A stretch of DNA of 64,000 bases from NCBI GenBank assembly GCA_020091685.1, contig CM034613.1, positions 13,894,169 through 13,958,168 on the forward strand. The letters are read 5' to 3'. This stretch comes from Lutjanus erythropterus. Taxonomy: Eukaryota; Chordata; Actinopteri; Lutjaniformes; Lutjanidae. Shown here one piece after another: positions 17,208-51,537 of the stretch (position 1 is the first letter of the stretch; every line of letters begins with the position of its first letter). Below the pieces are notes generated by a model. It did no database searches, was not told the DNA's origin, and saw nothing but the letters and a program-made list of their open reading frames with translations. Position numbers and translations under genes: made by a program.

Positions 17208-17990
17208 CTTTGTTGTTTTTAAAAATAAGATAAGTTATAGAATGATTATATATAACTGAATGTGATACTGATTTACGGAAATGATAACGTTTTGGTGAAG
17301 AAAATCGATATTCCTCCCTTTCCAACAATTTATTGGGTGTTTCCTGTGGTCCCCAACAAATCACACCGCCTCCTTGTTCCTATGCCAACGGTTCCACTTC
17401 AACTTAATTTCAACTCCTCATTCGCTACATTCATCGTCAAAATAGAGCATAGTTTGGCCTAGAAATAATTTCACATTTAGCGTTGAGTACCGCCACAATA
17501 AACGCAAAACGAAATGTGTTTGCTTCCTGGATAGCTAAAATAACCCTTACGACATTAGCGCAACTTGTCGTAAAGCGAGTCTCACATTTGTAGTTTTTTT
17601 CCTGATATCGCCCATTAAATAGAGCCCTTTAAAAACTACAAAGTGGTAGTCCGTTGGTGTCCGCCCATATAACACTTCCCGCGCGCACAGTGTAAAAGAA
17701 ATAGGAGTCGTGTCTAGAAGGGAATCGTTGATTTGCAAAAGTCTCGCGAGATCTTTCGCATTCTGTCTCCATAATGCACATTCTATAAAGTAATTATGTC
17801 TAATAATGACACGTTGCTGTGGTTAAGATCTGAAAAGGTTTCGAGACAAAAATTCTCCATTAGGATCATGGAAAGTTCATAGATTTTAGTAAAATGATGA
17901 CTCTCGCGAGATCTTTCGTGAGTCTGGGGTTCCCTTCTAGACACGACCAGGAAACAGCGGTACAGACAAAATCAGTCACACTTTCCACAA
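17208..17990. promoter_or_regulatory. shared nedd8 / gmpr2 head-to-head promoter region
   Basis: The nedd8 start codon (17207, -) and the probable untranslated gmpr2 first exon (ending at the donor 17991/17992) are less than 800 bp apart. The region contains GC-rich DNA around 17667-17696 and two perfect TCTCGCGAGA palindromes (17742-17751 and 17902-17911) inside the repeat element at 17707-17947. That motif is a known BANP-bound core-promoter element of vertebrate CpG-island genes. Transcription start sites are inferred. Confidence 0.7.
17707..17947 (+). mobile_element. TCTCGCGAGA inverted-repeat element, copy A
   Basis: This is the best preserved copy. It begins GTCGTGTCTAGAAGGGAA and ends with the exact 18-base inverted copy TTCCCTTCTAGACACGAC, 241 bp in all. 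Each end is followed inward by a TCTCGCGAGA palindrome and GATCTTTCG. The middle has TAATTATGT and TGTGGTTAAGATCTG, shared with the other copies. No coding capacity. It sits between nedd8 and gmpr2, and its right end abuts the presumed gmpr2 untranslated exon. Confidence 0.85.
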
Positions 17991-18523
17991 GGTAAATGCT
18001 TTATATTTCCTAAATATGTAAGATAAACAATTCGTTGGCTAATTATTAGTTCATGCTCAGATTAACAGTTTGCAGTGCTAATGAAATGGACTCAAGTTTC
18101 AACCGATGTAACCTTGAATTTTGACATCGGCGTTACGCTGCTCTGATCTCTGTGGTGTGGTTTAGTGTGAGTAGCAGTAGCAATAGCATTTTCAGTGGCT
18201 TGCAGGCAACAGCTACCTAGCAAAGGATATGCTTATTACATTTCAACACACGAGTAATTACAGTCCTGGTTAATTCTGACATATTTATTACATTAATTTG
18301 GTTCCCTCCGGACCCTAACATCATGCCTGTTTGTAGTTAATGGGATTTGATGACCATATGTGTGTGCATGAGTGTACGGAGGGAGGAAGGAGGGTCTAAA
18401 ATGAGAACAGACATAGCACAACCATCCTGAACTCTGACCTCCCTCTACTTCACAGGTTCACATTCTTCCATTTCACATTTTTTGTGTGTGTGTGTTACAC
18501 TACCTGTGCATCCTGTTTCCAAA

Positions 18524-21500
18524 ATGCCACGCATTGAGAATGACATCAAGCTGGACTTTAAGGATGTGCTCCTCCGTCCAAAGCGGAGCACACTCAAGTC
18601 TAGGAGTGAGGTACGTATACAGCTATGGATTTTGCTTTCCAATGTAAACCTGACTGACCTAAATGCAGATGTTTCCACTATCTGATGTTTCCACTGTTTG
18701 AACCTTTAGTTCAGCCCTGGGGAGGTCATTTAAGTGAGCACATACCCTCATGGACATTTAGTTGCTATTAAAGTCCAGAAAATTATTGTCCCTCATTCAG
18801 ATTTTACCAGCTGGTTAGAGGATTACTGGAGTGACCCTGTGACTGTAGAAACACATTGTCTGTGTCTGAAATTCCATACTAACATGCTATTGAGTTCGCT
18901 AAAACAGTATGTGAGATTTTTTTTAGTGCGTCTGAAACCTTAGTATGAAATCAGTAATACACAAGATGCATACTATTTCTGCAAAAAAACATTACAATAT
19001 GCAAGCACTACACGCCGTGTCTGATATCACATACTATGCCCTACGTACCCAAAATGTGTACTATCGTTCAGCATACTTTTTGTAAATAAACAGTAGTATG
19101 AATCTTTTTAAAACATATAAACATATATAATGCCTAGAAAAGTGAAACCTTTTTTATATTTAAATTAAAGCATTATTGAGAGAAATGCCTCTGTCTTTTC
19201 TGTTGTTGCACTTGCTGTGACTACTGCATTGCATTGTGAGATATATACTTGCCAGTGTCCAGTGCTTGCATACTGTACTATTTCCCTGGAAACAGTAAGC
19301 ACCCTGTGCACTGTTGATTGCATACTATGGTTTCACACATACAAAATCATACCGTTACATACACATAGTGTTTTAGCCTACTAAATAAGCATGTTAATAT
19401 GGAATTTCAAACACAGCGCTAAACTTTGCCAACAACTATATCCCACAATGCAATGCAGTATTGACAACAACATAACAGACAAAGACAGTAATGCTTCAAT
19501 TTAAATGTAAGAAAGGTTTCACTTTGCTGGACGTAATATATTTTTGTATGTCTATTATTTTCCTTATGTATTCCCTATTAGAAGGAAATCAGAAGCACTT
19601 TAAGTTAAAAGTAAAAACAAATGTTATACAAACAAAAAATGCTGAACATATCACATCTATTCTTTAATGAGGGAAATTTTCAAGTTGTCATTTTACTTTG
19701 TTTTTTTAATATCATGATAAATATTGTATTGTGGACTTAATCATTATTGTGGGTTTTTGGTATTATTAGATCCCTGTTAATCACATTTCCCATTGCCCTT
19801 GTTTTGATCAGGTGGACCTCCTGAGGAGCTACACTTTCAGGAACTCCAAGGGCAGCTACAGAGGGATCCCCATCATCGCTGCAAACATGGACACTGTAGG
19901 GACCTTTGAGATGGCCCTGGCTTTGCATCAGGTAGGTTATGCATTACATGGGATGTGTATAAATCACGTGTTATTTCACAGAGCGCTTCATAGATCTCAT
20001 AGGCTTAAAATCTAATTTAATGTCTAAAGTAGTCTAAACAAAACGAGGTGAGTATAAATTTAATCTGAACTAATGCTTAATAATCCCTATATTACATGGC
20101 AGGCTGATAAATGAGGACATGACCTACTGTCCTTGTTTCCTTTGCCAAAGACCAGATAAAAGCAAGATGTGACCAAGTCTTTCCGGTCAGGGTTGCCAGA
20201 TGCCAGAACTTAAGTATAGACCTTTTTACAGCAGCCACATTAATATGTATAGTAGAGTAAACACAGGTGTTACCAATGATACTAATTTAGGTCCTGTTAC
20301 ATTTAGTGTAGCAGAGCCTTTCAGTGAGCAGCATCTTGACTCTGTTTGAGCTTTGTTTGAATCTTAATCAGTATCATTGGTAACACCTGTATTTACTATA
20401 TTGTGTCAAATGTCTGCTGTGAAAAAGGTTTATAGGTGGCTACTGTGTCACATCTTTTTTAATATCCTTACAATGAAAACAAATGAAAAGATACAAAATA
20501 TTACCCCATAGACCTTTCTGCAGATGACAATGTGAACCAGAATTTGTTGTCTCCTCCTTTAGTTCACTCTCTTCACTACGATTCACAAACATTACTCCGT
20601 GGACGACTGGGTGGAGTTTGCAGCAAAGCATCCCGAATGTCTGAAGGTACTTAAAATGTTAATTATTTTGTAACCCTTTTTATTTTCTATTTATAATAAC
20701 ACAACTCTCTGTTTATCTCCCAGAGTGTGGCAGTTAGCACAGGGACTGGTGATGGTGACTTTGAGAAGATTTCAGCCATCTTGGCGGCGGTACCAGAGCT
20801 GGAGTATATCTGTGTAGATGTGGCAAACGGTTACTCTGAACACTTTGTTCACTTTGTCAAAGACGTCAGGGACAAGTTCCCCTCTCACACTATAATGGTC
20901 AGTTCATGTCTGCAATATTTGGGGCTGGAAAGGGAAAGGATGTTCGCATGTTGATATTTTCTTGATAAGTAATATTTTTTTATTTTGCTCAGGCGGGAAA
21001 CGTGGTGACAGGTGAGATGGTAGAAGAGCTGATCCTGGCTGGCGCTGACATCATCAAAGTAGGCATCGGACCAGGTTAGCACAGAGCAACACTTAATAAC
21101 ACATATCTACATATATAGGGAACATTATCATCTTAATACTCGCTATTTCTTTACACAAATAGTATTAAAGGGATAGTTTGGATAATTTGAAGTTGGATGG
21201 ACCTTATTTAAGTAGGTAAAATACATTTTGTCACTGACCCTGTGTGGCATCTGCTATGGGTAATACACTGATTATCAGTAAGTACCTCATACAATCCTAC
21301 ATCAGATAATCTGAACTATCCCTTTAATGACTCATGACACATTTCAGTGCATCACCATACGTAAGAACCCACGTTACAGAACTAACTTGTTTGTAGGTAC
21401 CACATGGGTGAGATTTCACCAAACAGGTGAATAGTGTTATTTATATTATACTATATTAATTCATATTCAACATACTCTCCTGGATGGGTATTTTCTATAT

Positions 21501-50841: not shown

Positions 50842-51072
50842 ATCGTGTCTGCTGCGAACTCTAGATTTGCAAAATCTCTCGCGAGAGTTAGAGGCGCATT
50901 TTCGGCATTCACCACATTTAATAAACTAATCGCGTTGTGTAAAAGGACAATGCTATGGATAGATGTATTTAGGTTAAGGGACAAAAGCACTTTGATAAGG
51001 CTAGGAAAAGTGGGTTAAAATTGTTACTCTCGCGAGATCTTTCGTGGGTCTGGGGTTCCCTTCTAGACACGT
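50842..51072 (+). mobile_element. TCTCGCGAGA inverted-repeat element, copy D
   Basis: It is in the same orientation as copy A, starting 22 bp after copy C ends. The left end TCGTGTCTGCTGCGAACTCT is diverged; the right end TCTGGGGTTCCCTTCTAGAC is nearly exact. TCTCGCGAGA is perfect at 50877-50886 and 51028-51037. The core includes AACTAAT and TTTAGGTTAAGGGACAAAA. Confidence 0.82.
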
Positions 51073-51294
51073 CCCTAGCGTTAACATAGCTAACATGATC
51101 TAGCTAGTGTTATTGGATAGGCCGCGGCAACACAACGTTAACTAAAGTAAACGTTACCGTTAAAATGCATTATCATTTAGCCCGGACAGCGGTTACATAC
51201 TCAACAACAGAAGATATCTTCGATAGTGAGTGCACACCGTTTATTTATCTGCGATACTCAGCTAACGTTAGCTTTCGCTGAACGGGTTATATCG

Positions 51295-51537
51295 GTCGTG
51301 TCTAGAGATAACTCTTGATTTGAGAAACTCTCGCGGGATTTGTACCGTTGTCTCATGATTGTGCGCCTTGGACAAACTAATTACGTTTTATAATTACGTA
51401 TTGTTGTGGTTAAAAAATGGATAGGTTTAGGGACAAAAAAAATCAATCGGTTATGGTCAGGAAAAGATCATGGTATTGGGATAAAATGAGCACTCGCGAG
51501 ACCTGTCGCGATTTTGGGGTTCCCTTCTTGACTCGAC
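51295..51537 (+). mobile_element. TCTCGCGAGA inverted-repeat element, copy E
   Basis: It begins GTCGTGTCTAGAGATAACTC and ends TTGGGGTTCCCTTCTTGACT with CGAC. Both motif sites carry one change: TCTCGCGGGA at 51329-51338 and ACTCGCGAGA at 51492-51501. The core reads AACTAATTACGTTTTATAAT, TGTTGTGGTTAA and TAGGTTTAGGGACAAAA, clearly homologous to copies A, C and D. Confidence 0.8.

Follow-up and report, generated by a model that had tools for sequence, protein, structure and literature searches.

Three intergenic regions in a stretch of 64,000 nucleotides from the fish Lutjanus erythropterus (contig CM034613.1, positions 13,894,169 to 13,958,168; the whole stretch is called the window, and positions in it are counted from its first letter) hold five copies of a short inverted-repeat element. 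Each arm of the element carries the sequence TCTCGCGAGA, or a form of it with one change, which is the CGCG element bound by BANP in vertebrate CpG-island promoters. The element is quite probably an old transposon resembling a miniature inverted-repeat transposable element (MITE), whose paired predicted BANP sites have been kept as a bidirectional promoter module. The evidence of use consists of conservation contrasts inside the same copies.

Copy 1 lies at 17706..17948 (+ strand) between nedd8 and gmpr2, and copy 2 at 37760..38003 (-) between cideb and tinf2. Copies 3, 4 and 5, at 50578..50820 (-), 50841..51073 (+) and 51294..51538 (+), share the interval between dhrs4 and an efs-like gene, copies 2 and 3 being oriented opposite to copies 1, 4 and 5. 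All were delimited by profile match, with the outer base of copy 1 set from the target-site duplication of the family. The first-pass annotation of the window had reported five copies with ten motif sites, seven of them perfect and three with one change. All five were located where it had placed them, and the recount gave the same figures: the motifs at 17742 and 17902 (copy 1), 37796 and 37960 (copy 2) and 50877 and 51028 (copy 4) are perfect, as is that at 50615 in copy 3, while 50775 in copy 3 and both 51329 and 51492 in copy 5 have one change each. Exactly these ten sites match TCTCGCGAGA with at most one mismatch in the 64-kb window, and none is situated outside the copies. Introns and other intergenic DNA of the window had been said to lack the element, and a profile search with the threshold set at E = 1 indeed returned the five copies and no sixth.

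The 18-bp sequence described as common to the ends is exact at three of the ten and within five substitutions at seven; copy 2 (at both ends) and copy 4 (at the left end) match worse than that, and two unrelated places in the window (59956 and 63915) likewise match it at five mismatches. It has no exact match in viral or bacterial collections. Judged from the whole family, the element probably extends one base further at each end (GG...CC). The right arms of copies 1 (17890-17945) and 4 (51016-51071) share 93% identity along 56 bp, far beyond the family level, possibly as a result of local gene conversion of the arm. Several copies also retain the core string TGTGGTTAAG, which we take to be RUNX-like, and a TTAGGG-like string (window 17818-17827 and ~50678-50693; alignment).

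The sequence of the element is best read as that of an old, non-autonomous, MITE-like DNA transposon with terminal inverted repeats, about 243 bp long and flanked by 9-bp target duplications. The copies are numerous, dispersed, uniform in length and non-coding, and they have both terminal inverted repeats and a target-site duplication of fixed length (9 bp), as is expected of a MITE. Because the element is only ~240 bp long, it is too short to have any transposase capacity. The motif is found ~35-40 bp from each tip, and ~150-165 bp separate the two motif starts, with the AT-rich core between them. In the 44 copies with both ends, the 9-bp direct repeat outside GGTCGTG...CACGACC matches at 174 of 396 bases, where 103 would be expected (z 7.7, the highest among 55 combinations of length and offset). 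It is exact in two copies (L053 and L055) and agrees at eight of nine bases in three others (L018, L024 and L056).

Relatives of the element occur throughout the genome (937.6 Mb in 444 contigs). Perfect TCTCGCGAGA sites number 2,938, and sites of the reversed sequence 438. At 580 places two perfect motifs are separated by 136-165 bases, an arrangement that the reversed control never showed. A search blind to the motif, for both exact 12-bp tips, found 33 places, again with none for the reversed sequence. Both motifs are kept in eight of these 33 copies (seven of 32, together with window copy 1), from which the number of full-length copies may be estimated, assuming independence, at ~2,390 (33 x 580 / 8). 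A search with the DNA of copy 1 produced 1,417 first-look candidates. The best other copy among the 40 scored is only 75% identical to copy 1, which makes the family an old one. Apart from the motif and the CpGs, the bases of the arms have an identity of 0.817 to the arm yardsticks, which, at usual substitution rates, would correspond to tens of millions of years.

Three of the window copies lie within 1 kb, as would be the case if the five had arisen by local duplication inside the gene cluster. Nevertheless, copies 3-5 have a mutual identity of 0.68-0.69 and resemble one another no more than unlinked copies do, the mean for window copies against copies elsewhere being 0.68. Copies 3, 4 and 5 are therefore separate insertions. 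The first-pass annotation had itself raised local duplication, to be recognized by an absence of dispersed copies outside this locus; copies were found on many contigs, and the idea retains practically no probability.

Conservation was read in 33 copies that had been chosen by their tips without regard to the motif. Of the CpGs in the motif, 111 of 132 have survived, whereas among the remaining CpGs of these arms 74 of 165 have (84% versus 45%, p 1.5e-12). The non-CpG bases of the motif are also well kept, at 363 of 396 compared with 1,887 of 2,310 outside it (p 2e-7), and in 29 of the 33 copies the motif has changed less than the remainder of the arms (per-copy test, p 4e-5). The proposal of the first-pass annotation, that a mobile element "spread, or was kept" as a promoter module, finds backing in both its parts, the spread being indicated by the target duplications and the keeping by conservation specific to the motif.

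These contrasts bear on the possibility that the element simply inserts into open CpG-island promoters, where the CpGs of its motif survive as unmethylated bases without being used. The copies do sit in CpG-rich flanks. A preference for certain targets is also suggested by the first 15.4 Mb of contig C1, where 36 groups of motif sites include four neighbour pairs within 1 kb compared with 0.08 expected (the groups are defined by the motif, and only the pair at locus L016 was read). However, selection on the motif fits better, because unmethylated surroundings alone would spare every CpG of the arm, whereas those a few bases from the motif are lost more often, and the non-CpG bases of the motif are better kept too. 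Survival of this passive kind appears unlikely.

The motif might instead be a working site of the transposon, recognized by the transposase or by a host factor required for mobility, its conservation being left over from amplification and not due to host use. Its near-fixed place in both arms is that of a subterminal transposase site. The tips, however, are likewise needed for transposition and are less often intact: only 33 places have both tips exact, compared with 580 with both motifs perfect, even though the motif pair holds four mutable CpGs and the tips hold none. The same disparity is seen from either side, since both motifs survive in eight of the 33 exact-tip copies, and both tips in eight of the 580 motif-perfect places. 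An origin of the conservation in transposition has to be given some weight but is on the whole unlikely.

The surroundings of the copies have the CpG content of promoters. In 500-bp bins with an observed-to-expected CpG ratio (CpG o/e) above 0.8, three of the five CpG-rich zones of the window hold copies (17501-18000, 37501-38500 and 50001-52000; the copies' own CpGs are counted in the bins), and two, 28501-29000 and 63001-64000, do not. For 13 dispersed copies in C1 loci, CpG o/e stands at 0.82 in the 250 bp bordering the element and at ~0.4 more than 1 kb away, and it is higher near the element than far from it at 12 of the 13. A flank CpG o/e above 0.6 was found for 24 of 32 tip-selected copies (median 0.77) and for nine of 78 background segments (p 3.7e-11); in the window it is found in ~12% of 51 segments. 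Two attributes of a BANP promoter element are present, namely the sequence TCTCGCGAGA and, judging from CpG content and genes, a CpG-rich promoter-like setting.

The identified genes agree with this setting. At the 13 C1 loci with dispersed copies (10 kb each), 14 open reading frames (ORFs) were picked from a list of coding scores, and seven of them, covering six loci, could be identified. They represent a gene with a cortactin-type repeat (L012), kmt5b (L014), a zinc-finger gene (L015), a transposase-like gene (L016), psmd13 and sirt3 (both L018) and a RING gene (L021). The other seven (two each at L013 and L019, one each at L017, L018 and L024) gave no identification. In all 13 identified pairs of gene and element the gene points away from the element; six of these genes are those of the window, the sample that had prompted the finding, and seven lie outside it. 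sirt3 and psmd13 flank a single copy on opposite sides, and we take them to share a known bidirectional promoter in human; nedd8 and gmpr2 are presumably head-to-head in human as well.

The first-pass annotation had assigned the copies to head-to-head promoter regions. This stands insofar as they occupy CpG-rich zones from which the neighbouring genes point away. It does not hold throughout, as the gene at L016 points away from its copy B while copy A sits between the two exons found, and the family is therefore not strictly confined to promoters. Copies no nearer to promoters than chance would place them, an outcome that the annotation had envisaged, were not found: CpG-rich flanks are enriched and all 13 genes point away, although distances to annotated starts were not measured.

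Several observations weigh against the element being a promoter module kept by the host. The yardsticks used for the arms were drawn up by eye, and the Fisher tests overstate significance, because bases within one copy are not independent. Source copies may have varied at CpGs outside the motif, and the conservation of the motif could partly date from selection in source elements. The state of the motif does not correlate with the CpG level of the flanks (32 copies, Spearman -0.19, p 0.30); the median flank CpG o/e is 0.78 with a perfect motif (n = 25) and 0.62 without one (n = 7), which is not a significant difference (p 0.12). The 78 background segments are far flanks of the 13 loci and not random places. 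L016 is the sole locus of the 13 without a rise in CpG, and genes were identified at only six of these 13 ten-kilobase loci. The target duplications of the five window copies are poor, with one to five of the nine bases matching, as old copies may show. A loss of the motif tied to CpG-poor flanks was also considered and dropped: the copies at L029, L030 and L041, among the most decayed, lie in CpG-poor DNA, but those at L034 and L049 do not, and there is no overall correlation.

A promoter module of this kind would most likely work by opening DNA around approximately one nucleosome and driving transcription outward, because of the published properties of the BANP motif. In the mechanism proposed, BANP would bind the unmethylated pair of sites as a tetramer. 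The pair would bracket about one nucleosome length of AT-rich DNA, holding the stretch open and unmethylated, and transcription would be driven from the element in both directions. Insertions at or next to gene starts would have been retained, their motifs being held by host selection. A single TCTCGCGAGA is reported to be enough for transcription both ways, with two adding about fourfold (PMC6192621). Full-length BANP is mainly a tetramer and has to oligomerize in order to select unmethylated CGCG (PMC11472053); for the BEN domain on its own, the best site is AAATCTCG (PMC10206803). In zebrafish banp mutants the motif is the most enriched in the chromatin that closes (PMC9363121).

The factor concerned may be a different one. 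ZBTB33 (Kaiso), or another BEN or CGCG factor, could be served by the motif, possibly repressing the element; a ZBTB33 paper contains the sequence 14 times (PMC3663758), and ZBTB33 is named together with BANP for the motif in PMC10474299. According to the same source it is BANP that reads the motif when unmethylated, and the CpG-rich flanks of the copies suggest little methylation. A reader other than BANP is accordingly improbable.

The contribution of the family to the motif sites of the genome was sampled by position on C1. Segments of 10 kb around the first sites in order gave 20 loci with 29 perfect sites, and 24 of these sites are within matches to the element family (E < 1e-8). Of the 24, 21 are in the 13 dispersed copies or fragments and three are in a shortened derivative (L005, L006 and L020). 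Since nine of the 14 profile sequences came from sampled loci, some loci match by construction; the inverted tips at sampled loci were seen independently of the profile. It is possible, though the balance is against it, that one ancient transposon family gave most BANP sites and rewired or founded hundreds of CpG-island promoters, often divergent, its paired sites keeping the DNA unmethylated and firing both ways; the BANP network of the host would then consist largely of transposon copies. The element may exploit islands that already exist, or may found islands as well.

Among known systems, mPing-type MITEs are similar in being short non-autonomous DNA transposons near plant gene starts; to our knowledge they have different target duplications and no BANP site. 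The CGCG element of vertebrate CpG-island promoters has the same ten bases, the CpG-rich setting, the multiple copies and the expected bidirectionality (PMC6192621, PMC9363121, PMC11472053, PMC10206803). Published work treats it as a promoter motif of the host, with 413 copies of motif 10 (PMC6192621), while here the pairs are delivered by a transposon. Words beginning with "transpos" are absent from the main texts of PMC6192621 and PMC9363121. The ISX element of Drosophila likewise disperses sites for a chromatin regulator that the host uses (PMC4384637), host use being predicted in the present case; it differs in clade and regulator and supplied 77 sites on a new X, compared with an estimated ~2,400 old copies with a paired promoter motif. 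Human THE1B and THE1C show the BANP/ZBTB33 motif enriched in STARR-seq-active copies, with CGCG-linked activity that is repressed by methylation (PMC10474299). These resemble the present element, but were assayed as enhancers and not as a paired inverted-repeat module beside gene starts.

That transposons spread binding sites is already known (PMC4384637, and PMC10474299 for BANP/ZBTB33 motifs in THE1). Three things appear to be new: the symmetric module with its two sites, the proportion of the sampled motif sites that it accounts for, and the contrast in conservation within copies. No paper describing the element was found in open-access PMC, and the repeat may already be named in repeat databases. 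Six pieces of its sequence occur in no open-access PMC paper. A search of open-access PMC for TCTCGCGAGA with "transposable element" returned only a paper on L1/Alu stem-loops, in which the motif appears in a reference title alone; among 40 of the 48 open-access PMC papers with the motif, this is the only one with transposons in its title. If the element works as proposed, it would offer a clear example of a transposon distributing whole, symmetric promoter modules that serve an essential factor of CpG islands. It makes it testable whether transposons found CpG islands, and how the sets of BANP targets diverge between vertebrates.

The genes bordering the window copies were placed as follows. 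The nedd8 coding exons (tblastn) extend over 16056..17207 (-), with the start codon at ~17207, where the beginning MLIKV was read, and form the leftward partner of copy 1; the gmpr2 exons (18524..23379, +, tblastn) form the rightward one. cideb occupies 33546..34754 (-), consisting of a CIDE-N exon at 34647-34754 (PF02017) and exons at 34360-34494 and 33546-33680 assigned by eye, the former of which matched no domain family. An ORF at 38695..38973 (+) contains the start of the tinf2 N-terminal domain (PF14973). The dhrs4-like exons (46371..49506, -, tblastn), with a start codon at ~49506, lie to the left of copies 3-5, and a CAS-family gene with an SH3 exon and a long ORF (52646..54085, +) lies to their right; the SH3 exon is the only match in it, and the name efs is presumed from the gene order. 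For cideb and the efs-like gene the term promoter is based on gene orientation and CpG content, because their first exons were not placed. The main text of the zebrafish Banp paper mentions none of nedd8, psmd13, gmpr2, tinf2, sirt3 and traf6. CENP-T, sought as a known Banp target through PF16171, had no match in the genome, and none in the controls either. At L016 a THAP-like first exon, recognized by eye, lies between the two element copies (exon coordinates 1214-2539 and ~4825-5000, both on the - strand); the second exon matches HTH_Tnp_4 and DDE_Tnp_4 and belongs to a transposase or a transposase-derived gene.

The Merlin superfamily makes target duplications of 8-9 bp, and the 9-bp duplication of the element fits this length. 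There are seven Merlin-type matches in the genome. Two of the seven were read, and no tip-like start or end was found on the stretch common to them, the true ends of which were not established. No MULE/MuDR partner was found, PF10551 having no match in the genome while it matched three of 14 control genomes; such a partner could be extinct. Membership of the hAT superfamily is disfavoured, the duplication signal being at 9 bp and not 8. A second class of element with wider spacing was considered as well and dropped. Perfect motifs with 172-201 bases between them, the next spacing tried, occur at only six places, and three of these (L059-L061) represent one element copy inside a longer duplicated stretch, present at three places on two contigs with both motifs intact in each.

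The remaining five of the 29 sampled sites are in a second repeat of ~890 bp (L020:3404-4290, and L008-L011 around 4996). Its copies are 90-99% identical, with hAT-like ends TAGACTTGCACCGAT and 8-bp duplications that were recognized by eye in two copies out of five. It carries TCTCGCGAGA beside an altered second motif and CACGTG, and is a second, unrelated transposon with the motif. A further repeat of ~1.6 kb (L005, L006 and L020:5314-6952) begins, in L006 and L020, with the hAT-like sequence CAGGGGTCCCC. It encloses the ~120-bp shortened derivative of the element, including one perfect motif. At L005 this repeat is interrupted by a stretch containing ORFs (5767-8599) that, by eye, resemble a pogo-type transposase.

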